Shown here in pieces: positions 1 through 34,119 of a DNA stretch of 64,000 nt (positions are counted from its first letter, which is position 1; the number at the start of each line of letters is the position of its first letter). Under the pieces are notes generated by a model. The model worked only from the letters and a program-made list of their open reading frames with translations, searched no databases and had not been told where the DNA came from. The DNA is from Nitrospiraceae bacterium (GTDB lineage: Bacteria > Nitrospirota > Nitrospiria > Nitrospirales > UBA2166): contig PBSN01000008.1 in the NCBI GenBank assembly GCA_002726235.1, positions 247,390 through 311,389 on the forward strand. Direction: 5' to 3'. Position numbers and translations under genes: made by a program.

Positions 1-3000
1 GGTGGGGAAGAACGCCATATCCCTCATCTCCACGGGATGCATCGTTGGCCGCGCCAGCCCTATGCAGAGCGTGACCGGGAGACGGGGAAATTCATTAGTA
101 AGATTTATATGCTGGGGACGGTTGAACCAGAAGATGGTATGGGCCTGACCGAGCAAATTGCGCGGACGGCCACTCTCTTGAAGAACCGTTCGACAAATGA
201 AACTACCTCCCAAGGGGCGAGCTTAAATCATGTCAAGTCCACTGTCAGCAGTATTATCGATGTGGAACTTATCGAACCGCATACGGTGCGTGATATGGAG
301 CTTGAGTGCGGGGCGGGAAGTTGCGAAGGCGAAGTCGGTGACTTTACCGAGCATTGCCACGTCGCTGACCACTATACTGCCGGCATGTGGCACTTCTGGC
401 GCGTCACAAATGTTCGCCAGGCCAATCTGTTCCCTCTGCCTGGGCGTATCGCGCCACCAGATCCGGTTGATTCGATCGGGCTTTTGGCGAGTGGAACGAC
501 GCTTGATGGAAGAAAGTTCTGTGCGACGGGTGCCGAGGATTGTCCCGAGATTGAGAGTGACGACTTTGTTAACATTGATCAGTGGGTGAGACATCTGTTG
601 CCGCTGAAGGGAGTGCCGGAGGGCTGTGGCACTGAGAATCCTCGAGCCTGCCCACATCCGCAAAATGTTGTTGCATGCCCGTCCCTTGAAGGCCTTACAG
701 GGAATGAGTTGTTGGCAGCGCATCAATGTCAGATTAGGGGCTATGATGCGGACCGGTATGATTACACGAGTCGGCTTGTTGGGGGGCAGCCTCTGTATTT
801 GAATGAGCCGGATGGACCGACGTTTGAGAACTTCCCAAACAGTCCCAATGGGCAGGGGGATTTTGGAGGAATTGGGGATGCTCAAGGGCGTTTTTCGAAC
901 TGGAAAGATACGCCGATTGACAGCGGAGGTGATGATATTGAGGCCATTCGGGCCAATCTTCCCGGGCCGTCCCCTGGCCAGCGTCCTTTGTTGCTCTTCA
1001 ATCCGGAGGATGGACGTTTAGCCTATCCTCACCATCGTCCGCATCGGGGAAAGCGGCCGCCACTGCCTGGTCCTCCGCTCGCGGATGATTCCGGAAGCGC
1101 GCATAGCGGCGCTCCCTTCTTGGGTGAGGTCAGTACGATGAGCCCGGGCACAGATCCGATAACAGCTCCAAAGGCTGAACTGGGTACCCGCCCGGCGGGC
1201 CTTTGCCCGCAGGATGCTCCCGTGCGGAGCTATGACATCGTGGTGACCCCTGTTTTGGGTGACGGTGCCGTGTATAACCGGTTCGGCGATCGTGATCCCA
1301 ACGCGGCGATTCATGTTTTGGCGAATGATGAAAGTGAACTCCAGTCTGGCATGCGGCAACCTCATACCCTGGTGGTTCGTGGGAATGTGGGAGACTGCAT
1401 GGACATTCAGTATCGGAATCATCTTACCGATGCGAATCCCATTCAGGAGGAATTCAGCAAGGCGAATATGCATCCGCATATGATGCATTTCGATGTACAG
1501 GCATCGGATGGAGTCATTATCGGGTTTAACTATGAGCAGTCGATTCGTCCCTCAAAAGATGCGCTGGCAGGAATTGATGTGCCGGGAGGCGAAGAAATAT
1601 GCTGTGAAGATCGGCCGGCGTTTCGGCAAAATGAATTTACTCGGTATCGCTGGTATCTTGATATTGAGATGATGGCCTTCTGGCATTTGCACCTTCAAGG
1701 CATTTTCGGGTTTTCGATGGGGGTGACGGGTGGAACGGTCGTAGAACCAGCGGGATCTGAGTACTTGGATCGGATCACAGGCGAGCCGATTTATCGTACC
1801 CATGTGGAGTTTCCTGAGCCGGAAGAATATGCGGAAGTTACCGAGAACCACAATACCTTGGCTGACGATCCGCGTATGTTCGGGGTTATCTCAAAACGTG
1901 GAGATGAGGCACCAACTGGTATTGGCATTATGACGCGCAGTATTTCGACTCCGCTGAATCCGGCGCGGCCTGAAATAGAAAATGCCGGTACGGAATTAGC
2001 TGATATCACGCCTGCGGATGAGCCCGCGTTCCGCGAAGCGGTTTTCTGGATGATTGATGATGTGAATATGCTCTTGGCTGAGACTAACGAATTCACCACG
2101 CATATGGCTGGGCCTAGTGCCATGAATATGCGGGCTGAGCGCCTTGATAGTCGGATGAGAGAAACTGGAGCGGCTCCTCATGAGGTTCTTCAGACGAGTG
2201 CCGGTGATCCATCTACCCCGACGATTTTGGCTCATCCAGGGGATCGAGTGGTACTCCGGGTGTTTACGCAGGGTACTCAGGATGCCCACTCTCTTCGTTT
2301 TCCAGGCCAAAGGTTTGGCTGGGAACGGTTCAACGCAGATGGTCGAGTGCTTGATACGCTCACGGAAGCCATAGGCTCTTTCCAACACTATGAACTCATG
2401 GGTGGCGCTGGTGGGCCATCGAATGTTCCTGGCGATTACATGTGGTATATGCCTATCGGCGCGCTTGATTTTGCCAATGGTGCCTGGGGGATCATGAGGG
2501 TTGGGGATCCCACTGGCCTTCAAAGTATTGGAAATGGTGGGAGCACCGATGTCCCAGATATCTGTGCTTCTGCGACTGGGACGCAGACATACAATGTGGC
2601 GGCAATCAAGTCACCTCGACGTACCTTGGAGGCAGCAAAGATATTTGTTTTGGCGGACGCGGATGGCAATCCTCTTTTGGATGAAGTTGAAAAGGGACAA
2701 CCGCTGGTCATGCGTGCCAACAGTGGTGACTGCATAACGGTGCGACTGTTCAATCAGCTCGATGACGGACACGTTGGCATGACGCCTGGACTCTTAACCC
2801 TTGATCCGAACTCAAGTTACGGGTTTAATTTTGGCGACAATGCTGATGGTCAAACTGTCGCACCAGGTGACGATATTGTGTACACCTGGTACGCAGAACC
2901 ACAGATGAAGCCGGCCGATGGTTCGTTGCTCAATCCCGATAAGGGCATTGGGGCTATTGAGTGGAGCAATCTGGGTAATAAGGAGCAAAAGCGGGCGTTG

Positions 3001-3747
3001 GGACTGAGTTACATTGCGAGCTTTGCAAATGTTCCGGAAGATCTGAATGATGGCTTGTTTGCCGCATTGGTCGTTGAACCTAAAGGGTCGTTCTGGTTTG
3101 ATTCAGAAACAGGCAGGACTCTCAATCCGAAGAAACGCACTAGTGTGTCGGCCGTGATTGTGCCTCCGAATGGCAAGGCATTTCGCGAGCATGTCCTCTT
3201 TATGCATGAAAATTCCGTGGAGTTCATTTCGAATATTCGGCCACTTGATTCGGCTGTCACGGCTGGTGCAGCGTTTAACTACCGACGTTCTCCTGGAGGC
3301 ATGCTGACGAAAACTGATCCTCGAAAGATAAATAGTATTCATCTGGTCACTTCGCAGGCGGGTGATCCGACTAGGGTTCGGCTTGTCTATACGAACGGGT
3401 CGGAAGATGTTGCGTTTAGGCTTGATGGACATCGGGGACCGATTGAGGCGGGGACCAAACACTCAAATAACCTCAACGTTTGGCCGATGAATGTTGGGCA
3501 CAAGCACGATATCGAACTAGATGGGGGGGCCAGTAGCTTCCCCGGCGATTACCTCTTTGGCGCAACTGAACATCGGAGGCTTATGGATGGCGGTCAATGG
3601 GGGATTTTTAGAGTGATTGATGCAGATGAGGCAGCGGCCTTGGGAGCCAAGGATCCGGAAACCAGGCTTCGAGGATTTACGACGCTGGAGCGAGCGACTA
3701 AGAAAGCGCAGCGAAAGCGCGATAAGGGGAAGGAGCCAAACAGTTAG
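1..3747 (+). CDS. Large multicopper oxidase, 5' end outside window
   Basis: This is a multi-domain cupredoxin-type multicopper oxidase. The frame is open to base 1, and the codons before the first ATG (base 37) read PHLHGMHRW, a copper-ligand HxHG motif, so the true start lies upstream and the visible part exceeds 1,236 residues. Counting from that ATG, further ligand-like clusters are HPHMMH at about 479-484, WHLHLQG at about 549-555 and DAHSLRFPGQRF at about 749. Near the C-terminus FPGDYLFGATEHRR is followed by GGQWGIFRV. The size resembles the MnxG/MofA class of manganese-oxidising multicopper oxidases (about 1,200 residues or more) rather than 450-600-residue laccases. The substrate is not determined by sequence. 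The C-terminal tail is Lys/Arg rich. The next gene on the same strand lies beyond a hairpin. Confidence 0.8.
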   Translation, partial: GGEERHIPHLHGMHRWPRQPYAERDRETGKFISKIYMLGTVEPEDGMGLTEQIARTATLLKNRSTNETTSQGASLNHVKSTVSSIIDVELIEPHTVRDMELECGAGSCEGEVGDFTEHCHVADHYTAGMWHFWRVTNVRQANLFPLPGRIAPPDPVDSIGLLASGTTLDGRKFCATGAEDCPEIESDDFVNIDQWVRHLLPLKGVPEGCGTENPRACPHPQNVVACPSLEGLTGNELLAAHQCQIRGYDADRYDYTSRLVGGQPLYLNEPDGPTFENFPNSPNGQGDFGGIGDAQGRFSNWKDTPIDSGGDDIEAIRANLPGPSPGQRPLLLFNPEDGRLAYPHHRPHRGKRPPLPGPPLADDSGSAHSGAPFLGEVSTMSPGTDPITAPKAELGTRPAGLCPQDAPVRSYDIVVTPVLGDGAVYNRFGDRDPNAAIHVLANDESELQSGMRQPHTLVVRGNVGDCMDIQYRNHLTDANPIQEEFSKANMHPHMMHFDVQASDGVIIGFNYEQSIRPSKDALAGIDVPGGEEICCEDRPAFRQNEFTRYRWYLDIEMMAFWHLHLQGIFGFSMGVTGGTVVEPAGSEYLDRITGEPIYRTHVEFPEPEEYAEVTENHNTLADDPRMFGVISKRGDEAPTGIGIMTRSISTPLNPARPEIENAGTELADITPADEPAFREAVFWMIDDVNMLLAETNEFTTHMAGPSAMNMRAERLDSRMRETGAAPHEVLQTSAGDPSTPTILAHPGDRVVLRVFTQGTQDAHSLRFPGQRFGWERFNADGRVLDTLTEAIGSFQHYELMGGAGGPSNVPGDYMWYMPIGALDFANGAWGIMRVGDPTGLQSIGNGGSTDVPDICASATGTQTYNVAAIKSPRRTLEAAKIFVLADADGNPLLDEVEKGQPLVMRANSGDCITVRLFNQLDDGHVGMTPGLLTLDPNSSYGFNFGDNADGQTVAPGDDIVYTWYAEPQMKPADGSLLNPDKGIGAIEWSNLGNKEQKRALGLSYIASFANVPEDLNDGLFAALVVEPKGSFWFDSETGRTLNPKKRTSVSAVIVPPNGKAFREHVLFMHENSVEFISNIRPLDSAVTAGAAFNYRRSPGGMLTKTDPRKINSIHLVTSQAGDPTRVRLVYTNGSEDVAFRLDGHRGPIEAGTKHSNNLNVWPMNVGHKHDIELDGGASSFPGDYLFGATEHRRLMDGGQWGIFRVIDADEAAALGAKDPETRLRGFTTLERATKKAQRKRDKGKEPNS

Positions 3748-3830
3748 TTAGGGATAGGTGCCCCTGCTGTTTGTGGGAGACATATGTAAGAACTGAGTTT
3801 TGAATTGTACAGCGCTAACGCAGTGTAGTG

Positions 3831-3879
3831 CCGCCCTGTCTGACGCTCGGAGAATTGGAAGCGTTGGTCAGGGCGGTTT
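3831..3879 (+). terminator. Hairpin after multicopper oxidase gene
   Basis: CCGCCCTG at 3831-3838 pairs with CAGGGCGG at 3869-3876. An inner ACGCT/AGCGT helix extends the stem, and TTTC follows. It lies in the 154 bp between the oxidase and the cytochrome fusion gene and could be a partial terminator. The T-run is short, so read-through is possible. Confidence 0.5.
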
Positions 3880-3901
3880 CTATTGTAGTAGGATCTTGTA
3901 A

Positions 3902-6649
3902 ATGAAAACATTGTATCGAGCATTTTCACCCTCTTTTTTAACCGTATTACTTTTACTCTCCCTGTCTCTTTCTCCTGTTTTTGCCGAGGCAACTCGATCT
4001 GCCGCTCTTTGGGCCTTGAGCGATGATCTGCCGCAGTTTGATGCGGTCCTATGGACGACTCCTGCAAACCCTTCTGCCGAGGAGGAGACAGTTATTGATG
4101 TTTCAATTCGTTATGGCCTGGGGTATGGGGGAACGACGACGCCTGGAGATCCGGTTCAGAATCTTCAAACGCTATATGGCCGAACCATTGAACTTTTTGT
4201 GATTTCCGAGAATCTGGACCATTTTGCCAGGCTTCGCCCTGAGCAGTTTAGTGCAGTTCCAGTGCATATGAAGGAAACCGCGATGTTCCAACTTCGGCAT
4301 CGTTTTCCTTGGGGAGGACGATACAGGCTTGTGACCACCTTCGCCCATCGTGGCAAGGTCTATCAGAAGCAGTTTGACCTGCGTATTCCTGGTTCGCCAA
4401 TCCTCGCTTCTGGCTCTCGTGATCTTAGTCGTCAGAAGGTTTTTGATCGTTACAGTGTCTCACTTGAGGTGCAGCCTGACAGCCCAATAGCTGGTAGTGA
4501 GGTGCAGTTTCGCTATCGGATCCATACTGATGGGAACGAGCCGGTCGTTGATTTGGAGGCATTTGAGGGGACTGAGATGCGCGTAGCATATGTCCGCGAT
4601 GATCTTCGCTTTTTCGCGCTTGAAGACCCTCAACTTGCGGAAGATTCTGCGGCCGTTCCGGTCGTTCCTCGCTTGGTTACCAAACGGCTCTATGGCAGGG
4701 GACTTTTGAAAGAAATCTTGCCTGATGGACGCATGATGATTGAACACGGGCCGATTAAAAACCTTGTATCGATTGCAGGGAAGATGCCGTTTCGAGTAGT
4801 CGATGCAGACGCGTTGAGAAAAGTGCATTCGGGGGATTGGGTGGAATTTTGGCTGATAAATGATCGAGCATCCGGGCTTGTCGTGACGCGGATTGAGCCT
4901 CTGAGTAGTCTGGGCTTGGGAGAGAATCCGGACGCGATTCGGCCATCTTCAGCCCATCCGTTGTTTCCAGGACCGGTCGTGCCGATCCGGCATACATTTC
5001 CATCATCCGGACTCTATGTGGCGTTTGGTCAGTTCAAGCATCAGGGAAGTTTGGTCACAACGCGGTTTATGGTCAATGTGAGTGATTTTGCTGTGGTCAG
5101 CGCGCGGGAGGAGTCGACACGGCACAGTGCGACACTCAATGCTCAGAGCGTGTTGACGCCACAGGAACAAAACGGCAGGATGATCTATACTTCCTCGACC
5201 AGTTTGTCCAAAGAATTGATTAACCTCAGTATCGGTGATGGACAGCTATTTCCAGCCAATCGCGTGACGTGTGCAAACTGTCATGGGCGTGATGGGCAGG
5301 GGAGTCGTGAAGGAGGTGCGGTCGCCTCTGACATCCGGCACGCTACTCTCAGTAAGCCATATTCCACGACAACAGAATCTGGACGAACTCGCTCGCCATA
5401 CACGAATAAGCTTTTGAAACGTGCGATTGTTGAAGGGATCGACTCGAATGGCCATGTTCTGGATTTTGCGATGCCGCGCTGGAAGATGTCGGATCAAGAT
5501 CTCGAAGATCTTATTGCATACCTTCAGCGACTGGGGGCGCTTGAAGCTCCGGGGGTAACAGAGACTACGATAAAGCTCGGAACTATTCTTGACTTGTCGG
5601 GGCCGCTCGCGCGGACCGGAGAAGCAGTGCGCCGTGTTATGGAAAATGTTTTCCAGACTGTGAATGCCGGAAAAAAGGTGTACGGGCGATCAATCGAACT
5701 TGTTGTCGCTGATGGCAAGAACGATCCACGCCTGTCACTTTTAGCGGCAAAGCGACTAGTCGAGCAGGATCGTGTTCTTGGGTTTGTTGGAACCTTGGGG
5801 GATGCGGCGAATCGGCTGGTGGTTCCCTATTTGGACGAGAAAGATATTCCGCTTGTGGCACCCCTCGCTCCTGCATTACAGCCCGCAGAGTTTGCAGCCG
5901 ATCAACTTTTTTCCATTTATCCTTCGTTGGATTATCAGGCTAGGGTATTGGTTGACTATGGCATGGGCCAAAAGCCGGCTTCGTTTGCCGTGCTCTATTC
6001 CGATAACTCGTTTGGTAAGGCAGGGCTCAAGGCAGCGAGGGATCAATTATCTCTTTACCATGTGGAACCGGTTGCCGAATTTTCTCACGTTTTTGGCAGG
6101 CTGGACGCTGAGAAGATTGCCAAGCTCTTTAAGGAGAGCAATGCGGATTTTGTGCTCCTCTTGACCGGTGATCCTTCGGTGATTGATGTTATTGCGGTAG
6201 CGGATCGTTTATCGTATTCTCCAGTCTATCTCGGACACAATCTTCTCGTCACGGGAACCATGTTGCAAATTCCAAGGGCTGGTGAACGGGTGGTCTTGGC
6301 TCAAAATTTCCGGTCCGGTAGGGTGCAGCATCCTTGGGTGGAAGAATTCACTGAGGTCCTGAAGGCTGTTCCCGGTTCTGGGCGCGACCGCGTTCTGCAG
6401 ATCTCTGCTTTTGTTGCGGCAAAGGTGATACTGGACGGTTTGAGGAACGCAGGAAATGATCTGACGCGTGCATCCCTTGTCACAGGTTTGGAGAAAGTGA
6501 ATCTGGATACTGGGCTTCTTGGAACCATTCGCTATAGCCAACAGAGTCATGAAGGATCGTTTGGAATTTCACTTGTGAAACCTGATGGGCTTCGTAAGAC
6601 CTTTCCCCTTGTCGCAGACCGACGTGAGCCTGTTACGCGTAGCCACTAA
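3902..6649 (+). CDS. Secreted cytochrome c / type 1 periplasmic-binding fusion
   Basis: A 915-residue protein with a clear signal peptide (hydrophobic residues about 10-28, FAEA cleavage region). Residues about 30-400 form one or more beta-rich domains without a firm family match; one stretch ending near residue 395 has the HTFPSSGLY pattern seen in secreted beta-sandwich modules. A monohaem site CANCH is at 457-461, followed by a class I cytochrome c domain ending LEDLIAYLQRLG. From about 552 a branched-chain amino acid-type (Peripla_BP_6) domain begins with KLGTILDLSGPLARTGEAV and runs to about 905. No ABC permease or ATPase genes are adjacent, so it may act as a ligand sensor or electron-transfer partner rather than a transporter component. 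The following gene starts 12 bp downstream, which suggests co-transcription. Confidence 0.8.
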   Translation: MKTLYRAFSPSFLTVLLLLSLSLSPVFAEATRSAALWALSDDLPQFDAVLWTTPANPSAEEETVIDVSIRYGLGYGGTTTPGDPVQNLQTLYGRTIELFVISENLDHFARLRPEQFSAVPVHMKETAMFQLRHRFPWGGRYRLVTTFAHRGKVYQKQFDLRIPGSPILASGSRDLSRQKVFDRYSVSLEVQPDSPIAGSEVQFRYRIHTDGNEPVVDLEAFEGTEMRVAYVRDDLRFFALEDPQLAEDSAAVPVVPRLVTKRLYGRGLLKEILPDGRMMIEHGPIKNLVSIAGKMPFRVVDADALRKVHSGDWVEFWLINDRASGLVVTRIEPLSSLGLGENPDAIRPSSAHPLFPGPVVPIRHTFPSSGLYVAFGQFKHQGSLVTTRFMVNVSDFAVVSAREESTRHSATLNAQSVLTPQEQNGRMIYTSSTSLSKELINLSIGDGQLFPANRVTCANCHGRDGQGSREGGAVASDIRHATLSKPYSTTTESGRTRSPYTNKLLKRAIVEGIDSNGHVLDFAMPRWKMSDQDLEDLIAYLQRLGALEAPGVTETTIKLGTILDLSGPLARTGEAVRRVMENVFQTVNAGKKVYGRSIELVVADGKNDPRLSLLAAKRLVEQDRVLGFVGTLGDAANRLVVPYLDEKDIPLVAPLAPALQPAEFAADQLFSIYPSLDYQARVLVDYGMGQKPASFAVLYSDNSFGKAGLKAARDQLSLYHVEPVAEFSHVFGRLDAEKIAKLFKESNADFVLLLTGDPSVIDVIAVADRLSYSPVYLGHNLLVTGTMLQIPRAGERVVLAQNFRSGRVQHPWVEEFTEVLKAVPGSGRDRVLQISAFVAAKVILDGLRNAGNDLTRASLVTGLEKVNLDTGLLGTIRYSQQSHEGSFGISLVKPDGLRKTFPLVADRREPVTRSH

Positions 6650-6661
6650 GGGCATAGTGAT

Positions 6662-8173
6662 ATGACGATACGGGCATTCCTGTGCTCGGTCATCATGCTC
6701 ATTGCTAGCATCAGTGCTTGGGATGATGCATTGGCGACAACACCGTTCCCTTCCAAGCAGAAATCTCTCGGGGTTTCCATTGAATTTGAGGCATCTCATC
6801 CTGTTTATGTCGGTGATGGGGCCACACTGGATTTTCGTGTTTCCGATGCGGTGACAAATCAGCCAATTCGAGCACTTCGGCCGGAGTCTGCGGTACGACT
6901 CAACAATGGAGAAAGGAATCTCAACCTTTGTGGCGCGAATATGAAAACCAAATCTCGCCGGTATGGTAGCCACACTCCAGTCCAATTTAACTCCTATATT
7001 GTGGCGTTGAACAGTCTTGAAGGTACTCTGAGTGTGATGAATCCTGGTCGCACGTCCCGCATGCTCATCAAGAAAATCGAGCTTGGTGGTTCTGGAAATG
7101 ATATTGCACTAGCTTGGCTTGGACGGTACATCTATGTGACTGTTGAGCCAAACGAGTTAGTGGTTGTGGACGGGGTCCATATGGAGCCGGTTCGGCGACT
7201 TGAGGTCGGAACTCATCCCCATCATCTCGCCATTCAACCGGACGGTAAGTACGTGTGGGTTGCTCATGATGGTGATGCGTCAGTCAGCGTGATTGATACT
7301 GATATACACAAGATTGTTGCCACAGTTCCTGTTGGTCGAGGGCATCACGATTTTGCTATGACCGATGACAGCCGCTATGTTGCGGTCACCAATCAGGAGG
7401 ACCATACGGTGACCTTGATCTCGGTGCGTGATTTGGCGCCGGTTGGAACAGTCGCTGTCGGACGTAGACCGCATGGCGTTGGGTACTCATCATTAAGCCG
7501 TTCATTCTATGTGGCCAATGAAGGCGATGGAACGTTGACTGTCATCAATGTCGCGAGGCCTAGCGTGCACAAAACGATTTCCGTCGGAAAGGGAGTTCGT
7601 GTTGTGAGATTTGAAAAAGGAGGACGATGGGGCTATGCACTCAACCGGGAAGAGAATACAGCCACCATCGTTGATGCCACGACGGATACGGCGGTTGAAA
7701 CGTTCCCGACTGGAATTGCGCCGGACGATATTGTCTTTGAATACGATTGGGCCTTTATTCGGAACGCGGGAAGTGCCGATGTGACGATTGTGAGCCTTCG
7801 TCACCAAGGGTTGCTCCAAAACTTTCCTGTGGGCCATTTTCCTCCGAATCATGTCGATATACCTCAAGATCATTCGTCATTAGTCAGCTTTGGCGATGGC
7901 CATCAGGTCCTTGTTCCCAATCCGGCTGATGGGGCTGTGTACCAGATGATGGCCGGTGGGGTGGTTGGAGCATCGAGGGTGTTTGAAACCAAAGGGCGTG
8001 GGCCAACTCGTGCAGTTGTGTATTGGCGGGGTCTAAGAGAGGTAAGTCCAGGTCTTTACCGTCGAGTGCGCACTTTCGATCAACCAGGGCGTCACGAAAT
8101 CGGATTTTATGTGTCCAGTCCGCAAGTAGCAACCTGCTTTGAACTTACCGTTTTACCTGCGCTACCACCCTGA
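6662..8173 (+). CDS. Secreted YVTN-type beta-propeller protein
   Basis: A 503-residue protein with an N-terminal signal peptide (about 1-28). Residues about 30-125 form a short beta domain (SIEFEASHPVYVGDGATLDF). Several YVTN/cytochrome-cd1-like propeller blades follow, for example YVWVAHDGDASVSVIDT, YVAVTNQEDHTVTLI and FYVANEGDGTLTVINV. The C-terminal about 70 residues form another beta segment. A single Cys near residue 93 sits in a position seen in related propeller proteins. No haem motif is present. Such propellers act as periplasmic interaction or redox-partner scaffolds. Its tight linkage to the cytochrome fusion gene suggests a shared complex, but the precise role is unknown. Confidence 0.8.
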   Translation: MTIRAFLCSVIMLIASISAWDDALATTPFPSKQKSLGVSIEFEASHPVYVGDGATLDFRVSDAVTNQPIRALRPESAVRLNNGERNLNLCGANMKTKSRRYGSHTPVQFNSYIVALNSLEGTLSVMNPGRTSRMLIKKIELGGSGNDIALAWLGRYIYVTVEPNELVVVDGVHMEPVRRLEVGTHPHHLAIQPDGKYVWVAHDGDASVSVIDTDIHKIVATVPVGRGHHDFAMTDDSRYVAVTNQEDHTVTLISVRDLAPVGTVAVGRRPHGVGYSSLSRSFYVANEGDGTLTVINVARPSVHKTISVGKGVRVVRFEKGGRWGYALNREENTATIVDATTDTAVETFPTGIAPDDIVFEYDWAFIRNAGSADVTIVSLRHQGLLQNFPVGHFPPNHVDIPQDHSSLVSFGDGHQVLVPNPADGAVYQMMAGGVVGASRVFETKGRGPTRAVVYWRGLREVSPGLYRRVRTFDQPGRHEIGFYVSSPQVATCFELTVLPALPP

Positions 8174-8241
8174 TCTAGAGATGGAGTTGCTTCCCTTTAA
8201 ATCTTTCGCGGCTCATTCCTAGTTATGGTATAAAAGTAGGC

Positions 8242-9435
8242 GTGATTAGCCGGACGTCTTTCATAAAGGGAAGTTTGATTGTACTTCCGCTTCTCCTATG
8301 GTTTTTTGTCGAGTCAGTATTGGCGTTGCCACGATTTTCTATGCGGACTGGAGTACAATGTATTACTTGCCATGTGAACCCAAGTGGTGGGGGGATGCGG
8401 ACTGAGGCCGGATCTCTTTACAGTCGTATGAGTATTCCTTATAAACCGTCCCTCCGAACTACGGGCAAGAGGTTTACACCGAAAATTAACGAGTTTTTTA
8501 CTTTTGGAACGGATTTACGGGTGATGGCATTTGATGATGATCGAGGCACCACATCGGTATTTCCTATGCAAGCTGATTTCTACTTTTCTGCACGACTGAC
8601 GGACAAAGTCACGTTGTATCACGATCAAGGCTTTCGTCGGGGGCTGGATCTTAATAATTTTGAAACATTTGCTCTTGCACAGGTGTTGCCGTTTGATGGC
8701 TATGTCAAGGTCGGAAAATTTGTTCCCGCGTTTGGATTAAAGCTCGACAACCATACCGCGTTTATTCGAGGCGGAAATTCAAGCACGGCTGGAGCTGGAT
8801 CTCGCGCACCAGATTTTGCAAGTTTTACAAACGGGACGGGGTTTAGTCAGCAAGACAAAGATGAGGGGGTGGAAGTCGGTTTTTATCCTAGGAATGCATC
8901 AATCCAGATTGCGGTGCTCAATGGAGGACGCGATAGCACAAACGACTTTGACACCAATACGAGTAAAGCATTTGCTTCACGTGCCGACTACATTTTTGAT
9001 TTTGATGTTGCGCGAGCGACAATTGGTGGGTCGTTCTATCAGAATGATGGATCCTCATCATTAGAAACGATTTATGCGACGCACTTCGGGGCGAATTGGT
9101 CAAAGTTTACGTATTTGGGCGAAGTTGATTGGGAAACGCTCGACGACGAGATGGCACGGGAAGGTGTGAGGCGGGGTGTACGACGTACTGCGTCATACCA
9201 CGAATTGAATTATCTTGCAGTTCGAGGCATAGACCTAAAAATGATATATGAATTTATTGATCCAGATCGTGAAATCAACGATGATTCACTTACCAGAATT
9301 AGTGGCGGAGTCGAGTTTTTTCCACTTCCGCATCAGGAGATCAGGCTTGAGTATAGGCATACGCTGGGAAATCGAGACGTGAACCCAGATGCAAATCTGA
9401 ATGAGGTTATCATGATGTACCACGTTTTTTTCTGA
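8242..9435 (+). CDS. Cyc2-like fused cytochrome-porin
   Basis: A 397-residue protein beginning at GTG, with a signal peptide ending near LA-LPRF. One CxxCH haem motif (CITCH, residues 40-44) sits immediately after it in the context RFSMRTGVQCITCHVNPSGG. The rest (about 60-397) alternates aromatic and charged strands typical of a 16-strand outer-membrane barrel and ends in VFF, the terminal-Phe signal for barrel insertion. This architecture (short N-terminal monohaem segment followed by a porin) is that of Cyc2 iron-oxidising cytochromes and related families. It probably moves electrons across the outer membrane. The electron donor cannot be read from sequence. A non-Cyc2 monohaem porin family is the main alternative. 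Confidence 0.7.
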   Translation: MISRTSFIKGSLIVLPLLLWFFVESVLALPRFSMRTGVQCITCHVNPSGGGMRTEAGSLYSRMSIPYKPSLRTTGKRFTPKINEFFTFGTDLRVMAFDDDRGTTSVFPMQADFYFSARLTDKVTLYHDQGFRRGLDLNNFETFALAQVLPFDGYVKVGKFVPAFGLKLDNHTAFIRGGNSSTAGAGSRAPDFASFTNGTGFSQQDKDEGVEVGFYPRNASIQIAVLNGGRDSTNDFDTNTSKAFASRADYIFDFDVARATIGGSFYQNDGSSSLETIYATHFGANWSKFTYLGEVDWETLDDEMAREGVRRGVRRTASYHELNYLAVRGIDLKMIYEFIDPDREINDDSLTRISGGVEFFPLPHQEIRLEYRHTLGNRDVNPDANLNEVIMMYHVFF

Positions 9436-9508
9436 CCTTACGTTGTTTGCGAATATGAAATAATTTGTGATAGATATTGCGACACAGATAATCACAATGG
9501 AGGATCGA

Positions 9509-9943
9509 ATGAAACTTTATTCTGTACATGCAAATGGGTTTCCACTGCAGGTGGGAGGGCTAGTGTTGCTTATGGCCGTTTTGGTGATCAGTGGGGGGGT
9601 AGCATATGCGGGTCTTGAGGGTGCGGGAGAATCCCTGAAGCACATGGATGCCGCCGTGGTAACGATCGAGGATGCCGCAAAGCATGCAAGCCAAGGGCAT
9701 GGCGATCAAGTTTCATCGCATTCAAGTCAAGCGATTACGCATGCTGAGCAAGCCATCAAAGCAATGCCGACGGGAAACGCACACGCGCGGGAATCGCTGA
9801 CGTTGCTCAAAGAAGCTGTTGAAAACCTGAACAAAGCAACGCAATTTGCGAATGAAGGGAACACTAGAAAGGCAACCAATCATGTGAATCTGGCACTCGA
9901 CTTTGTTGATGCTGCGATTTTACACCTTCGTCATAGCCACTGA
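9509..9943 (+). CDS. SmbP-like small metal-binding periplasmic protein
   Basis: A 144-residue protein. The start chosen is the ATG at 9509 because GGAGG lies 5 bases upstream; a GTG at 9467 would add 14 residues before the signal peptide. Residues about 9-34 form a hydrophobic export signal ending VAYA. The mature part is all-helical with spaced His/Ala heptads (AAKHASQGHG, SSHSSQAITHAEQA, HVNLALDFVD, ending LRHSH). This resembles SmbP of Nitrosomonas, a four-helix copper and divalent metal binder. Its position at the end of the oxidase/cytochrome island suggests metal buffering in the periplasm. No catalytic motif is present. Confidence 0.65.
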   Translation: MKLYSVHANGFPLQVGGLVLLMAVLVISGGVAYAGLEGAGESLKHMDAAVVTIEDAAKHASQGHGDQVSSHSSQAITHAEQAIKAMPTGNAHARESLTLLKEAVENLNKATQFANEGNTRKATNHVNLALDFVDAAILHLRHSH

Positions 9944-28120: not shown

Positions 28121-30070
28121 ATGAAGCGGCTTTTTGAGGGGAGAATGAGAAATAAGCAGCTATTGAGCTGGCTAGCCGTTGGGGTTCTTGTGGGCGCCTT
28201 GCTGCTTCCTCTGGTGATCTCAATTCCCCTGTTGGCGGAAGAGTTTGAAGATGCAGCGCTTGAACAGGCGGCTTTTGCTGAAGAGACCCTAGGTGAGGAT
28301 GTTCCTGCTCAGGAAATTGGATATGACGTTCATTACGGAGACGAAGGAATTGTTCAAGGGCCACCTGCTCCTGTGACCTCGGATAACGAAAATGATTATC
28401 CGCGGTACAACTTCGAGAGTCGGGTCATTATCTGGGTTGCGAACCAACAGCACCTCTATTATGGCAGTTTTGTGCTTGCGGTGCCGATCTTCGTGATGAT
28501 CATCGAGTTTATCGGGATGGTCACCAAAGATCGTGCGATGGCGCAGAAGTACGATACGCTCGCGTATGACTTTATCAAAATCAGTATTACCGCCTATTCG
28601 ATTACCGCAATTCTAGGAGGGGTGCTGGTATTTACGTTTATGATTCTCTATCCGGCATTCTGGACGTACATGACGAAGATCTTCCATCCAGCCATGCACA
28701 TCTACGTCTTGTTGTTCTTGGCTGAGAGTGGGACGCTCTACATCTACTATTACGGCTGGGATGCAATGCGAGAAGGACTTCTTAAGTGGGTCCATCTTAG
28801 TATGGCGGTATTCCTGAATGTATTTGGTACGGTGCTCATGATGCTCGCGAATTCATGGGCGACGTTTATGATGTCTCCTGCTGGAGTCGATGCCGAGGGG
28901 CAGTATCTTGGGAACATCTGGTTGGCAGTGCATAACCATCTTTGGAATCCCGTTAATATTCACAGGATTCTTGGCAATATGGTATTTGGTGGAGGGATTG
29001 TCGCTGCCTATGCAGCCTATCGCTTCTTGTCAGCGAAAAACGATGAGGAGCGAGCCCACTACGATTGGATGGGGTATGTCGCGATGTTCATCGCCGTCGC
29101 GTTCCTTATTCCTCTTCCCTTTGCCGGTTATTACTTAATGCGGGAGGTGTATGCATACCGGCAGCAGATGGGTATTACGCTTATGGGAGGACTGCTGGCT
29201 TGGCTGTTTATTATCCAAGCCGTCCTGATCGGGGCGCTATTCCTGACAACAAATTATTATTTATGGCAAGGGATGGAGCGTATGCGAGGTGCTGAACGTT
29301 ATCAGAAGTACATTAAGTACATGACGTTTGTGCTCATCGTCTGTTTCTTGGTTTGGTTAACGCCGCATACGATGGTCATGACACCAACTGAATTAAAGGA
29401 GATGGGAGGGCAGCAACATCCTGTCGTTGGCAACTACGGGGTCATGTCGGCTAAGAATGGGGCAGTAAATATCATCATAACCACGACTGTGCTGAGTTTT
29501 CTTTTGTATCAGAGGTGTAACAAGATACCAACGGTTCCGTGGGCAAGGTATGGGAATATTGCGCTATGGGCTTTGTTTAGCGTCGCATTTGTCAACATTA
29601 TTTGGCTGGCAATCTATGGCTATTACATACCTGCTAATGTGCGCGTGGGGCTTTCAGTGCCCCAAGTTGTCTCAACGCTATCGTGCTTGTTTATTGGAAT
29701 GACAATAAACTTATTTATGATGCGTGGTGCGAAGCCAACAGGCCCGGTCGAATGGGGAAAGATTTCGGTTCGATCTCAGTATGCGTTGTTCATGCTGGCA
29801 ACGTCGTTTACCTGGATGATGGGATTGATGGGGTATATCCGATCATCTGTACGGCTTCATTGGCATGTCAATGAAATCATGCGTGATAACTCTCCGTGGG
29901 CTTTTACGCATACCATCGGTTTTGCGGCGAACATGATCTCATTTAATGTGCTCTTCTTCTGGGTCACATTACTCTTCGTCTTCTGGCTTGGATCTTTGGG
30001 GACGAAGAAGGCGGTAGTAGAAAAGGGTAGAGCCGCTCCGGTTGCGGCTCTTGCACCAAGCACTAACTAA
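28121..30070 (+). CDS. Cytochrome bd-like oxidase subunit I
   Basis: A 649-residue polytopic membrane protein with about 14 helices, much longer than CydA (about 520). The start is ATG 28121 with GGGGGAGG 7 bases upstream. After a first helix (about 16-38) a soluble loop of about 65 residues precedes the core. CydA-like landmarks include QQHLYYGSF (possible high-spin haem ligand region), FHPAMHIYVLLFLAES, ANSWATFMMSP and NHLWNPVNIHRILGN. It resembles the bd-like putative oxidase described from Nitrospira. It may reduce O2 or act as a quinol/cytochrome-linked electron module. Extra His residues (HNHLW, HWHVNE) could bind additional metal. No cydB neighbour is present. An 8-bp stem (AGAGCCGC/GCGGCTCT, 30029-30051) lies in its last codons. 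Confidence 0.85.
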   Translation: MKRLFEGRMRNKQLLSWLAVGVLVGALLLPLVISIPLLAEEFEDAALEQAAFAEETLGEDVPAQEIGYDVHYGDEGIVQGPPAPVTSDNENDYPRYNFESRVIIWVANQQHLYYGSFVLAVPIFVMIIEFIGMVTKDRAMAQKYDTLAYDFIKISITAYSITAILGGVLVFTFMILYPAFWTYMTKIFHPAMHIYVLLFLAESGTLYIYYYGWDAMREGLLKWVHLSMAVFLNVFGTVLMMLANSWATFMMSPAGVDAEGQYLGNIWLAVHNHLWNPVNIHRILGNMVFGGGIVAAYAAYRFLSAKNDEERAHYDWMGYVAMFIAVAFLIPLPFAGYYLMREVYAYRQQMGITLMGGLLAWLFIIQAVLIGALFLTTNYYLWQGMERMRGAERYQKYIKYMTFVLIVCFLVWLTPHTMVMTPTELKEMGGQQHPVVGNYGVMSAKNGAVNIIITTTVLSFLLYQRCNKIPTVPWARYGNIALWALFSVAFVNIIWLAIYGYYIPANVRVGLSVPQVVSTLSCLFIGMTINLFMMRGAKPTGPVEWGKISVRSQYALFMLATSFTWMMGLMGYIRSSVRLHWHVNEIMRDNSPWAFTHTIGFAANMISFNVLFFWVTLLFVFWLGSLGTKKAVVEKGRAAPVAALAPSTN

Positions 30071-30101
30071 ACTAATGCCATTGAATGAAGCGAGGGGATA
30101 G

Positions 30102-31328
30102 GTGGACTTTCTGAAGGATAAAAAATTGCTCTTCCGGCTCTGGATTGGGTTGTTGGCTCTTGGCTTGGTTGTACTCGCCATCACCAATTATCGTGTGAAT
30201 TTCTACGGGAATTCCAGGTTGCTCCCTGTATCATTAGGGATCTTCGTTACCGCAACGTTCTTGCTCGGAATTTATTTCCAAAAAGTTCGTGTGGTGATGC
30301 ATGGTGCGGCATTTATGATTTTCGTTGCTGCAGCGTTTGCTGGATTTTCCAATTGGCTTCCCCAAACTATTGGGGAACCTCCTCCATTTGAAGAGAAAAT
30401 TGCGGATATTTCCACGATGTCAACGCAAGAACTTGCCGATCTTGGGGAAAAGCTGATTTTTGGTGCGGTGGGGGCGAGTACCGTCAAAGGATCAATTGGG
30501 AAAGGGCAATGTCCTCTGTGTCATGTATTTGGGTCAAGCGAACATGGCGAGCGGGCACCCAATATGTATGGGTTGCCGGATCGCTCTGAGAAGATTGTGA
30601 AACTCGATGAATATCAGAACCGTGACACTGTACAGACGGTGGCATTTGATGGAAGCGGGATTGCAGAGAGTGGACTTGAATATATGGCGGAGTCGCATGC
30701 ATGCCCCAACTGTTATGTGAGTCCTGGTTTTGGAAAGGGTGGCACAAACGATCGTGAAAGTCCGATGCCTGCCATTCATAAATCGCCAATCAATCTCACC
30801 ATCGATGAAATGGTTGCCATTGATACTTGGTCGTATATCCGTGAGGGGCTTGAGGCACCTTCTGTTGACGAGATGCGTGTAGCCTATGAGAAGTTTATTC
30901 CAGAAGATGAGCGACCGCAGGCCTCCTCTGGAGCTGATGGGGAAGGCGAAGGGGGCGAAAGCCAGCTGTATGCTACCGGGGATGAACCGTTGCCGAAGCT
31001 TTTTGAGAAAGCGCAGTGCACGGTTTGTCATGTGATTCCAGGGATTCCAGATGCCGATGAAGGCGATTTTGGGCCTGAGCTTTACGTCAAGACCAATGCG
31101 CCTAAGCGGATGAAGGATAAAAACTATACGGGATCAGCGTCATCGGTTGAGGCATACATCTTAGAATCTATTCTGGATCCTAATCTCTATATCGTTCCGG
31201 ACTTTGATGAAGACTTGATGCCTGAAGACTTTGGGACTGGGCTCAACGCCAAAACTGTGTTTAGAATCGTCAACTACCTCTCGCAGCTTGAGAAAGGTAA
31301 AGATCCTCCGAATCACGAGGAGATGTAA
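30102..31328 (+). CDS. Membrane-anchored dihaem cytochrome c
   Basis: A 408-residue protein from GTG 30102 (GAGGGGATAG upstream). Three N-terminal helices (about 7-90) anchor a periplasmic part with two canonical haem sites, CPLCH at 137-141 and CTVCH at 306-310. A third Cys pair, CPNCY at 201-205, has Tyr in place of the haem His. Motifs such as MPAIH and ILDPNLYIVP resemble cytochrome c oxidase-type and photosynthetic electron carriers. It directly follows the bd-like oxidase gene by 31 bp and probably passes electrons to or from it. Whether the CPNCY site binds haem, metal or forms a disulfide is open. Confidence 0.85.
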   Translation: MDFLKDKKLLFRLWIGLLALGLVVLAITNYRVNFYGNSRLLPVSLGIFVTATFLLGIYFQKVRVVMHGAAFMIFVAAAFAGFSNWLPQTIGEPPPFEEKIADISTMSTQELADLGEKLIFGAVGASTVKGSIGKGQCPLCHVFGSSEHGERAPNMYGLPDRSEKIVKLDEYQNRDTVQTVAFDGSGIAESGLEYMAESHACPNCYVSPGFGKGGTNDRESPMPAIHKSPINLTIDEMVAIDTWSYIREGLEAPSVDEMRVAYEKFIPEDERPQASSGADGEGEGGESQLYATGDEPLPKLFEKAQCTVCHVIPGIPDADEGDFGPELYVKTNAPKRMKDKNYTGSASSVEAYILESILDPNLYIVPDFDEDLMPEDFGTGLNAKTVFRIVNYLSQLEKGKDPPNHEEM

Positions 31329-31418
31329 GGGCAGGCAATGACTCCACCGGTAATTATGGGGAGAGAATATATAATGTGCGTGGACAAAGGTACGGCCGTT
31401 GTCATGAGGGAGGCTTAA

Positions 31419-32339
31419 ATGCCGGGTTTTATTGAAGGGATGATGCCTGTTCAGCTATTGGCGGAAATATTGCTGATCATTGTTATCTTCGTATTGGGTG
31501 CGATGATCTTGGACAAAAAGATGGGAATTCGTATTCCCATGTTGCTCCAAGCAGCCTTGGTATTCATTGCTGGATGGTGGTACTACAAGTTTAGAATTGA
31601 ACCTCCGTTGCCATTTAGTGTGCGGGCGATCTATCAGGTAATGATTGCCATTGGTATTTTCATGTGGGTGTCTTCGGCTGAGAAAGGTTGGACAGAGTTT
31701 AAACGTCCAATTCTTGCGGTGTTGGATGCGAAGACGCCGTTAACGTGGTGGGTGAGGGCGGTTCTCCTTGTCGTATTGCCGCTTTCTGCAAGCGGAATGG
31801 CCTACAAGAATCTCTTGCCTAGCCTGGGAGAACCTATTGAGCTTCGAACTGTCCATCCGGCCCCACCGGCAGCAGTAACGGTCCATGGTAAGAAGTTCCC
31901 CTTGCAAACCTCTGAGAGTCCGGTCAGGGTTGATGAAAGCGGTGAATACTCCAATCATATACAAGACGCGCATGTGATGGACAATCCATTCGATCCTGAC
32001 AGTATCCAGTACATGCAGAATGTTAAGGAAGGTGGCGACATTTTCTTTCAGAACTGCCACTTTTGCCATGGGGATAATTTGAATGGTCGCGGTTTATACG
32101 CCTATGCGTTTAATCCGATTCCCGCAAACTTTACCGATCCTGGCACCCTCGCGCAACTCCAAGAGACATTCGTGTTTTGGCGCGTAGCCAAAGGTGGGCC
32201 AGGGCTGCCGCGTGAAGGGTTTCCCTGGGCATCAGCGATGCCTCCATGGGAGCAGCATCTAACGACGGAAGAGATCTGGAAAGTAATTTTGTTTGAGTAT
32301 TGGCATACTAAGTATCCGCCGCGGACTTGGGATGAGTAG
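31419..32339 (+). CDS. Membrane-anchored monohaem cytochrome c
   Basis: A 306-residue protein with four predicted N-terminal helices (MPVQLLAEILLIIVIF, LLQAALVFIAGWWYY, VMIAIGIFMWVSS, WWVRAVLLVVLP) followed by a periplasmic class I domain with CHFCH at 213-217 and the sixth-ligand region MPPWEQHLTTEEIW. The ATG follows GAGGGAGG. A 26-codon frame ends just before it (TAA-ATG), which may be chance. It is translationally coupled to the next cytochrome, whose reading frame begins near its stop. Confidence 0.85.
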   Translation: MPGFIEGMMPVQLLAEILLIIVIFVLGAMILDKKMGIRIPMLLQAALVFIAGWWYYKFRIEPPLPFSVRAIYQVMIAIGIFMWVSSAEKGWTEFKRPILAVLDAKTPLTWWVRAVLLVVLPLSASGMAYKNLLPSLGEPIELRTVHPAPPAAVTVHGKKFPLQTSESPVRVDESGEYSNHIQDAHVMDNPFDPDSIQYMQNVKEGGDIFFQNCHFCHGDNLNGRGLYAYAFNPIPANFTDPGTLAQLQETFVFWRVAKGGPGLPREGFPWASAMPPWEQHLTTEEIWKVILFEYWHTKYPPRTWDE

Positions 32340-32370
32340 CCGTATGGGTGCTGTTGGGGGAAATACAACA

Positions 32371-34119
32371 ATGATGACAGATCATGCCTGGTGGCGGTCT
32401 CGCCGTGTTATCTTGATTGGGCTTGCGCTTGGCCTCTGCACGCTTTTAATGTCAGCACCTTGGTTGGTGAGTGTTGCTCCTGGACAGGAGGAGGAAGAAG
32501 AGGGTGAGCAATTGCCTGCCGGTTTTGTCGACGGCGAATTACCTGCAGAGCCGACACCAGAACAACTTGAAAATGGAAAAAAAGTCTACTTCAGCAAATG
32601 TGTGTGGTGTCATGGCGTTGAGGGTGCGGGTGATGGGCCGGGTGCGGATCGGTTGTGGCCGCGACCGCGGAATTTTATTCAGGGCACCTTCAAAGTAAGG
32701 CATACGTTTAGTGGAGAATTGCCCCTGCTCGAAGATCTTTTTCAAACTGTCACGCATGGGTTGCCTGGGTCGGCCATGCCTCCGTGGGATGGCATTTTGA
32801 ATGAGCAACAACGTCGCGATGTCGTTGCGTTTATCGCGTTTGTGCTTATTCAAGATCGTGCGTTTGATGATGACGAATTTGAGTATGTGACCAAACTCGA
32901 ATTGGACACGCTGGAGCCAATTCCAACTTCGCCTGAAAGCCTTGAACAGGGTAAGGCTGTGTTTGACCGCTTGCGTTGTGCAGAGTGCCATGGCCAGGAA
33001 GGGCGCGGGGATGGGAATCCTTTCAATCTGAAAGATGACTGGGGTTTTGCAATTCAGCCGGCAGATTTCAGCAAGTGCTGGAATTTTAGGGGGAGCCGGC
33101 AGGATCCTTATAATGTTCGAAATATATTTCGGACGTTTTCAACAGGACTTAATGGAACACCAATGCCTTCCTTTGCTGATCAAACGACGATTGATGAGCG
33201 CTGGCATCTCTCGAATTTTGTGAATTCTCTCTGCGAGCGGGATGACGAAGGCAATCCGATGAAGATTGATCCGTTAACCGACAAGCCCGCTATTACATTT
33301 GTGGTGCGTTCGGGGTTTCTCGAAGAGGGTGCCACGATTCCCGATGATCCTCAGGACCCGGCATGGGAAGCGCGCGAACAACGTTTTATTGGCATGGCCG
33401 GGCAGATTATCCATAAGAGCCGAAACTTTGTAAATAAAATTGACAATATTTTTGTTCGGTCGCTTTATGACGACAATGACATCGCGTTTTTGTTTGAATG
33501 GAACGATCGGAGCCAAAGCATCAAACCTGATGACCTTGAAGCTGTTATGCCAGAAGAAACTCCTCCGAGTGGCGATCCAATCGCCGGCAAGATTCGTGCG
33601 TATGGACCATTTAATGATGCGATTGCAATTCAGTTTCCAACCGATTGGGCTAACCTAACTCCTCCTGAAAAGCCACGATTTATTCATGGAGATAGCAAGA
33701 ACTCTGTGGATCTGTGGAAATGGGAATCTGACAATACAATCAAAGCCTATACCGGGACCGGTGCATTGGAACCATTGGTTGAGCGCGAAGCATCATCCGC
33801 TGGGCTGCAAGTTGTTTTTTCCGAATATAAAGATGGTAAGTGGACGCTTATGGTGAAGCGATCCCTAGCGGCAGAGAATGAAGGAGATGTCGAATTTGTC
33901 CCTGGTGAATACATTCCGACAGTGTTTTTCGCTTGGGAAGGCCACAATGGAGATTATGGTATTAGAATGGCCATTTCGACGTTTTATAGTACCATTCTGG
34001 AGCCTCAGATTCCGGCTTCCGTCGCTTGGTATGCAATCTTTATCGGTATAGGGATTGTCATTGTCGAAGTTTGGGTCTTAACGGGAAGGCGCAATCGCGC
34101 ACAAGGGAAGGCCGTGTAG
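32371..34119 (+). CDS. Dihaem cytochrome fused to NxrC/EB_dh domain
   Basis: About 582 residues. The ATG at 32371 is chosen for GGGGG 10 bases upstream; the frame also has ATGs at 32332 and 32344. A signal anchor (VILIGLALGLCTLLMSAPWL) precedes two cytochrome c domains with CVWCH at 77-81 and CAECH at 203-207. The C-terminal about 290 residues resemble the ethylbenzene-dehydrogenase gamma/NxrC haem b domain (DAIAIQFPTDW, SVDLWKWESD, VFFAWEGHNGDYG). A final helix (WYAIFIGIGIVIVEVWVL) anchors the C-terminus. Similar fusions serve nitrite oxidoreductase- and DMSO-reductase-type systems in Nitrospirota. No alpha or beta catalytic subunit is adjacent, so its partner is unknown. Confidence 0.82.
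   Translation: MMTDHAWWRSRRVILIGLALGLCTLLMSAPWLVSVAPGQEEEEEGEQLPAGFVDGELPAEPTPEQLENGKKVYFSKCVWCHGVEGAGDGPGADRLWPRPRNFIQGTFKVRHTFSGELPLLEDLFQTVTHGLPGSAMPPWDGILNEQQRRDVVAFIAFVLIQDRAFDDDEFEYVTKLELDTLEPIPTSPESLEQGKAVFDRLRCAECHGQEGRGDGNPFNLKDDWGFAIQPADFSKCWNFRGSRQDPYNVRNIFRTFSTGLNGTPMPSFADQTTIDERWHLSNFVNSLCERDDEGNPMKIDPLTDKPAITFVVRSGFLEEGATIPDDPQDPAWEAREQRFIGMAGQIIHKSRNFVNKIDNIFVRSLYDDNDIAFLFEWNDRSQSIKPDDLEAVMPEETPPSGDPIAGKIRAYGPFNDAIAIQFPTDWANLTPPEKPRFIHGDSKNSVDLWKWESDNTIKAYTGTGALEPLVEREASSAGLQVVFSEYKDGKWTLMVKRSLAAENEGDVEFVPGEYIPTVFFAWEGHNGDYGIRMAISTFYSTILEPQIPASVAWYAIFIGIGIVIVEVWVLTGRRNRAQGKAV

Follow-up and report, generated by a model that had tools for sequence, protein, structure and literature searches.

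The window, a 64,000-nucleotide stretch of contig PBSN01000008.1 from a Nitrospiraceae bacterium, opens with a run of genes encoding a giant multicopper oxidase (MCO) and four further proteins, here called p2 to p5. In window coordinates these are:

1..3747, + strand, MCO: giant MnxG-like multicopper oxidase, residues 471-1718 of 1718
3902..6649, + strand, p2: secreted fusion of a CusF-like domain, cytochrome c and Peripla_BP_6
6662..8173, + strand, p3: exported YVTN beta-propeller protein
8242..9435, + strand, p4: single-heme cytochrome-porin with a predicted 16-strand OprO/OprP-like barrel
9467..9943, + strand, p5: SmbP-family small metal-binding protein

A sequence-only reading had described five adjacent + strand genes here, and the ORF listing confirms that all are present, separated in order by 154, 12, 68 and 31 bases. 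None contains an internal stop, and dN/dS relative to the nearest species is 0.07 for the MCO, 0.13 for p2, 0.13 for p3, 0.07 for p4 and 0.25 for p5 (the G001 MCO pair is out of frame and was left out), showing that these are more than chance reading frames. The window edge cuts the MCO gene so that the part within it lacks a start; the full gene (G000:C8:245980-251136) begins 1,409 bases before the window and encodes 1,718 residues. Three conserved co-directional genes lie upstream of it, beyond the segment considered in the sequence-only reading, and encode a 448 aa protein, an LTD lipoprotein and, directly upstream of the MCO, a NosD-like beta-helix protein. Promoter and terminator scans returned site counts no higher than in shuffles.

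The MCO had been described as MnxG-sized, and the solved MnxG structure 9bxa matches it over several domains (E 2e-80). The proposal of metal oxidation called for complete type 1 and trinuclear copper ligands; we find one complete set, with type 1 ligands H476, C589, H594 and M599 and trinuclear histidines at 479, 481, 588, 590, 961, 963, 1032 and 1034. All 12 are encoded within window positions 16-1692, and all 12 are invariant across 32 homologues. H594 aligns with position 340 of 9bxa, where the residue is Ala, probably the engineered substitution H340A. The MCO nonetheless scores just 81 bits against the MnxG equivalog model NF041487, below its cut-off of 3,100, compared with 856-994 bits for the type-B MCOs of Nitrospira-like genomes. 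It forms a long separate branch outside the Pseudomonas-type clade, and an AU test against its placement in one clade with the YVTN/SCO-linked (Pseudomonas-type) MCOs gives p = 2.65e-5; subject to caution over the long branch, the tree rejects orthology between the MCO and Pseudomonas-type MnxG. Of the 57 Nitrospirales genomes examined, 55 hold relatives of the giant MCO, frequently more than one, and those read at full length have the same copper sites. To our knowledge no role has been assigned to the giant MCOs that nitrite oxidisers carry in multiple copies; our literature search found nothing on Nitrospira MCO expression, and it found no paper on the Mnx structure.

Domain matches agree with the earlier descriptions of p2 and p3 as a secreted cytochrome/binding-protein fusion and a YVTN propeller. 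In p2 a CusF-like domain (residues 275-333; 36 bits, cut-off 27) is followed by a cytochrome c with one CxxCH site (CANCH, 457-461) and a Peripla_BP_6 domain (residues 556-892); the Trp and one Met of what we take to be the CusF copper site are lost. The best p2 match outside the family (in G043, aligned over residues 410-886) adjoins a giant MCO, as do the best p3 matches outside the family (in G037, G043 and G040) and the full-length p3 matches outside it. In G043 a SCO1 gene stands between these genes, and the sole plasmid match covering 99% of p3 directly follows an MCO with 1,410 bits for NF041487. The mnxG operon of Pseudomonas putida GB-1 encodes MnxG, a YVTN propeller, two SCO1/SenC proteins, an 'ABC substrate-binding protein, cytochrome c domain' and SurA (PMC11409713). 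By sequence, p2 corresponds to the cytochrome c/ABC-binding protein encoded in the Pseudomonas operon, and p3 to the YVTN protein adjoining mnxG in Pseudomonas and type-B MCOs in Nitrospira-like genomes. Because the pair recurs with two separate MCO lineages, p2 and p3 may well be genuine parts of a Mn-oxidase apparatus; the literature yielded no assigned role for their counterparts in Pseudomonas.

The fourth protein, p4, is longer than 365 aa, with a signal peptide, one N-terminal heme site (CITCH) and a barrel. Predicted from 13 diverse rows, its fold has 16 strands at medium confidence (pTM 0.68, mean pLDDT 63; six close sequences gave a pLDDT of 29), and the nearest solved folds are OprO/OprP (Z 21), the porins named for Cyc2 (PMC8406198). 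The label 'Cyc2-like' therefore suits the architecture of p4, which shares with Cyc2 the signal peptide, the length, the single N-terminal CxxCH and the predicted 16-strand barrel, but not its motifs: AXPXFAR[QK][TY] before CxxCH reads ALPRFSMRT in p4, and PXL after it reads PSG. For p5 the SmbP assignment holds (PF16785, 42 bits, cut-off 29), although its linkage to the cluster does not extend beyond the sister species.

The order MCO-p2-p3-p4 is kept in G003 and, with one gene inserted, in G001, and throughout the family as far as contigs allow, while p5 adjoins the cluster only in the closest species. The MCO, p2, p3 and p4 are co-conserved in the family, and neither this linkage nor the copper ligand set refutes the metal-oxidation proposal of the sequence-only reading. 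Following p4 relatives into other Nitrospirota orders led to no further MCO islands.

The suggestion that this gene set was undescribed does not hold for its core, since the combination of MnxG, YVTN and cytochrome c/ABC-binding protein is known from P. putida GB-1 (PMC11409713) and related operons occur in Nitrospira-like genomes; the differences here are an MCO outside the Pseudomonas-type clade and the addition of p4. As in the Pseudomonas operon (PMC11409713, PMC8218464) the genes are co-directional, but here the MCO is of another branch, p2 precedes p3 and has a CusF-like domain, the cytochrome-porin and SmbP are extra, and SCO and SurA genes are missing; no SCO1/SenC or SurA ORF lies between the MCO and the acs gene, and the nearest SCO found is ~35 kb from the cluster (L242). 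Bacillus MnxG (mnx operon; PDB 9bxa) is likewise a multi-domain cupredoxin protein with one type 1 and trinuclear set, but has 1,227 aa rather than 1,718 aa, and the MnxE/F-like small subunits were not seen here: no such pair is present upstream of the MCO among ORFs of at least 120 aa, a threshold that leaves shorter ORFs in the 373-base gap uncovered, and the conserved upstream genes (298-448 aa) are unlike the two ~100-aa genes of Priestia. The type-B operons (G043, G037, G040) also combine a giant MCO with a YVTN protein, together with a cytochrome c partner in G043 and G040 and SCO in G043; their MCOs, however, are ~24% identical over parts and form a separate clade, and the p4-family cytochrome-porin is absent there.

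We interpret the cluster as a divergent mnxG-type operon whose product oxidises a metal, most likely Mn(II), and give this a probability of about one half. The correspondence of p2 and p3 to Pseudomonas mnxG operon proteins speaks for metal oxidation, and the interpretation is backed further by the 9bxa match, the 12 invariant ligands, the kept gene order and the purifying selection from MCO to p4 (dN/dS 0.07-0.13). It is weakened by the long separate MCO branch, the low NF041487 score, the lack of SCO, SurA or MnxE/F-like genes in the cluster, the residues lost from the CusF site and the multiple copies of related MCOs in nitrite oxidisers. As to substrate, electron direction and the cooperation of p4 and p5, we infer that the type 1 copper of the exported MCO would accept single electrons from the metal ion, most probably Mn(II), and that its trinuclear site would reduce O2; the dedicated periplasmic partners would be p2 and p3, probably in copper supply, assembly or electron transfer, the heme-bearing outer-membrane pore p4 could pass dissolved metal or electrons across the outer membrane, and p5 would buffer metal. 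The metal is not fixed by the sequence evidence, and copper, iron or organic substrates are possible.

It is rather unlikely that the MCO instead acts as an oxidase of organic or nitrogenous compounds, or as a scavenger of O2 or radicals, having acquired its partners by chance. Such activities are conceivable for the numerous giant MCOs of nitrite-oxidising Nitrospirales, whose prevalence and shared copper sites are consistent with this alternative, but p2, p3 and p4 neighbours are absent at the sequenced type-A MCO loci, and in the family purifying selection acts on the linked genes. Copper handling, with the MCO a cuprous-ion oxidase and the cluster shielding the envelope from copper, would account for the CusF-like and SmbP domains, the adjacent NosD-like gene and the SCO of the related Nitrospira operon in G043; we consider it unlikely, as the CusF ligands of p2 are degraded, the genes seen in the cluster include neither CopA nor CusA nor a copper regulator, copper-efflux systems do not comprise a heme porin or a cytochrome/binding-protein fusion, and the partner set fits an mnxG operon. 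Fe(II) oxidation led by p4, the MCO and partners being secondary, draws on the Cyc2-like heme site and barrel but is decidedly unlikely given the divergent motifs; moreover, p4 relatives in other Nitrospirota have no MCO detectable within the stretch examined, and a p4 paralogue in the same genome adjoins a triheme protein gene.

The mnxG-type interpretation bears on the energy source of the host family. NXR is absent from four genomes of the family, as determined with an NXR alpha protein query that we used because PF00384 alone is a poor detector (it missed G005), and these genomes almost certainly represent GTDB family UBA2166, the host being a relative of Nitrospira that does not nitrify. 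The family is described as the sole one in Nitrospirales without NXR, is marine, often from sediments and vents, and fixes CO2 by the rTCA cycle; its energy source was left open, with sulfur cycling only suggested, and the words 'multicopper' and 'Cyc2' are absent from the main text of that report (PMC12342949). With its heme porin, the conserved mnxG-type cluster offers a concrete, testable alternative. The window also contains a bd-like terminal oxidase complex cluster, and a regex search, which is weak evidence, gave no credible heme-copper oxidase subunit I in 1.61 Mb of loci (C8:391000-670135, ~279 kb, lying outside the scan). Multicopper oxidases normally hand electrons to O2, and for that reason the inward feeding of electrons put forward in the sequence-only reading is a proposal only. 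We find it improbable that the cluster is the family's lithotrophic apparatus, in which the MCO and p4 would oxidise Mn(II) or Fe(II) either at the outer membrane or beyond it and pass electrons via p2 to the bd-like complex. If so, Nitrospirota would have, besides the Cyc2/PCC_1 route proposed for Ca. Manganitrophus, another route to Mn lithoautotrophy that relies on an MCO. The Mn(II) lithotrophs of Ca. Manganitrophaceae (PMC9040806) are likewise Nitrospirota without NXR that carry MCO genes, a cytochrome-porin and a bd-like terminal oxidase cluster, but there PCC_1, not identified here, is assigned the electrons together with Cyc2, and the MCOs are given no role.

The multicopper oxidase cluster at the left end of the window is real, conserved and partly known, and represents a new form of mnxG-type operon. 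The sequence-only reading had described five adjacent + strand genes, and all five are present, but the oxidase as read there is cut at the window edge; its full ORF encodes 1,718 aa and starts 1,409 bases upstream of the window. The intergenic gaps from oxidase to p5 are 154, 12, 68 and 31 bases, and all five proteins have N-termini that, judged by eye, resemble export signals. Three genes precede the oxidase on the same strand; they encode a 448-aa protein that fits no known family, one with a lamin-tail domain, and a NosD-like beta-helix protein. The features, with domains from Pfam and NCBIfam, are as follows.

1-3747, +, giant MnxG-like multicopper oxidase (MCO), running on upstream; matches cupredoxin models weakly and MnxG in part
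3902-6649, +, p2, fusion of CusF_Ec, cytochrome c and Peripla_BP_6 domains
6662-8173, +, p3, propeller of YVTN repeats
8242-9435, +, p4, single-heme cytochrome-porin; no Pfam or NCBIfam model matched
9467-9943, +, p5, SMBP domain
28121-34119, respiratory cluster: cytochrome bd-like subunit (PF01654), diheme protein, cytochrome c and a fusion protein
Locus L002 5023-6369 and locus L081 117-1502, upstream of MCO: the exported 448-aa protein, which belongs to no known family

In a set of 57 Nitrospirales genomes, the window's four-genome family is the only one in which MCO, p2, p3 and p4 all have close relatives together. The closest species (G003) has the whole set in identical order, with all three upstream genes preceding MCO and with p5, which adjoins the cluster only there. 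In G001 the order is MCO-p2-p3, an inserted lamin-tail-domain gene on the opposite strand, then p4 and directly after it another copy of the 448-aa gene (56% identical); a p5 relative (52% identical) lies at the edge of another contig. G002 is fragmented, its contiguous pieces being 448-aa gene-NosD-MCO and p3-p4. Between the window and G003, dN/dS is 0.07 for MCO, 0.13 for p2 and p3, 0.07 for p4 and 0.25 for p5.

The sole PDB sequence match to MCO is the solved Bacillus MnxG (9bxa, E 2e-80), which we take to be an engineered H340A form, position 340 being Ala where homologues have His. Domain-wise alignments set the HIPHLH and HCHVADHYTAGM motifs of MCO against the type 1/trinuclear half-site of MnxG; HPH and HLH of MCO fall on the second half-site. 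All 12 ligands (4/4 type 1, 8/8 trinuclear) are invariant in an alignment of 32 sequences, and therefore the incomplete copper sets that would speak against the proposed metal oxidation are not seen.

The sequence-only reading knew of no description of this exact gene set, but its core partners are already known from P. putida GB-1, whose putative mnxG operon contains mnxG together with genes for a YVTN beta-propeller, two SCO1/SenC proteins, an 'amino acid/amide ABC transporter substrate-binding protein, cytochrome c domain' and a SurA-domain protein (PMC11409713 Table 4; PMC8218464). The best p3 matches outside the family are in the Nitrospira-like genomes G037 (E 3e-54), G043 (E 7e-48) and G040 (E 3e-27), no more than a few kb downstream of MCOs of 1,973-2,417 aa. 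The best p2 match (E 2e-47; cytochrome c plus Peripla_BP_6) is in G043, where a SCO1 gene separates the p2 and p3 counterparts within one cluster. Because these relatives adjoin giant MCOs, and because MCO-YVTN-SCO stretches occur on plasmids of Indioceanicola profundi and Sphingobium xenophagum, the p2/p3 pair is a marker of mnxG-type operons. The link to the Pseudomonas operon is drawn from published annotation and from how the intermediate loci score on the MnxG equivalog model NF041487; two of the Nitrospira-like MCOs reach 856 and 994 bits.

The oxidase itself has a different affinity. In an IQ-TREE phylogeny built from 694 alignment columns that cover the copper sites, the family's MCO branches outside five YVTN-linked MCOs (p = 2.65e-5 in an AU test against a single clade) and nearer to general Nitrospirales MCOs and one actinobacterial MCO, although its stem is long (1.4) and its exact place among long branches uncertain. 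Two readings fit best: either mnxG-operon partners have been joined to a giant MCO of a different lineage, which the data favour, or the operon's own MCO has diverged far. Nitrite-oxidising Nitrospirales widely carry several copies of giant MCOs (1,580-1,740 aa; loci L136-L155) that have a single complete copper set and no known role, in some cases two of them within 10 kb.

An AlphaFold2 model of p4 (13 sequences; mean pLDDT 63, pTM 0.68) contains 16 strands, with CITCH on its N-terminal segment, its closest folds being OprO and OprP (Z 21, 3.2-3.4 A), the porins to which Cyc2 is likened (PMC8406198). The Cyc2 motif AXPXFAR[Q/K][T/Y] reads ALPRFSMRT, however, and PXL reads PSG; p4 is therefore Cyc2-like in predicted architecture, as earlier proposed, but not a Cyc2 by defining motif. 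The strict motif occurs in no protein of the 1.61 Mb of loci examined. p4 shares the motif CxACHxNPxGGGMR with a family that has full-length or nearly full-length members in seven other Nitrospirota genomes (395 sampled), with no MCO relative detected near those members. A broad Nitrospirota family of heme-bearing barrels has CxACHxNPxGGGMRNxHG (L126, L123, L124 and others), and the N-terminal motif also starts many 300-380 aa proteins throughout the phylum. A second p4 copy, about 60% identical, directly follows a 583-aa triheme protein on contig C6 (L082, 7979-10924), an arrangement repeated in G003 (L083).

We put the probability that the cluster oxidises a metal, Mn being the likeliest, at roughly 0.5. 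In the likeliest mechanism, Mn(II) or some other reduced metal would be oxidised in one-electron steps at the type 1 copper and O2 reduced at the trinuclear site, with p2 and p3 as putative periplasmic partners, p4 as a possible outer-membrane heme channel and p5 as a possible metal buffer. For Mn lithotrophy to be based on an MCO, the electrons would have to go not to O2 but to a periplasmic carrier, for example cytochrome c (Yu et al., PMC9040806); the p2 cytochrome c and p4 heme are candidate acceptors, not proof, and we consider energy-conserving lithotrophy from the cluster unlikely. The respiratory cluster 18 kb downstream, whose fusion protein joins two cytochrome c domains to an ethylbenzene-dehydrogenase-type heme b domain, resembles the Nitrospirota bd-like (TO-type) terminal oxidase complexes discussed in PMC9040806.

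All four genomes of the window's family lack NXR alpha (completeness 90.65, 88, 73 and 96%, the first being the 1.87 Mb source draft, whose contig C8 holds the window at 247390-311389); of 35 other Nitrospirales searched, 32 have it, whole or fragmentary. From the nearest named genome, Nitrospiraceae bacterium UBA2166, the matching family size and the absence of NXR, we infer that the window belongs to family UBA2166, four marine, rTCA-encoding genomes without NXR, often from sediments or vents, for which only a possible sulfur role has been suggested (Kop et al. 2025, PMC12342949). Elsewhere in the source genome (contig C13, L130, 4479-12411) is a cluster resembling iodate reductase idrABP1P2, with an AioA/IdrA-like subunit (TIGR02693, 429 bits), a Rieske subunit, two MauG/MbnH-like diheme proteins and a small cytochrome c; flanking diheme peroxidases distinguish idr from aio loci (PMC8692401).
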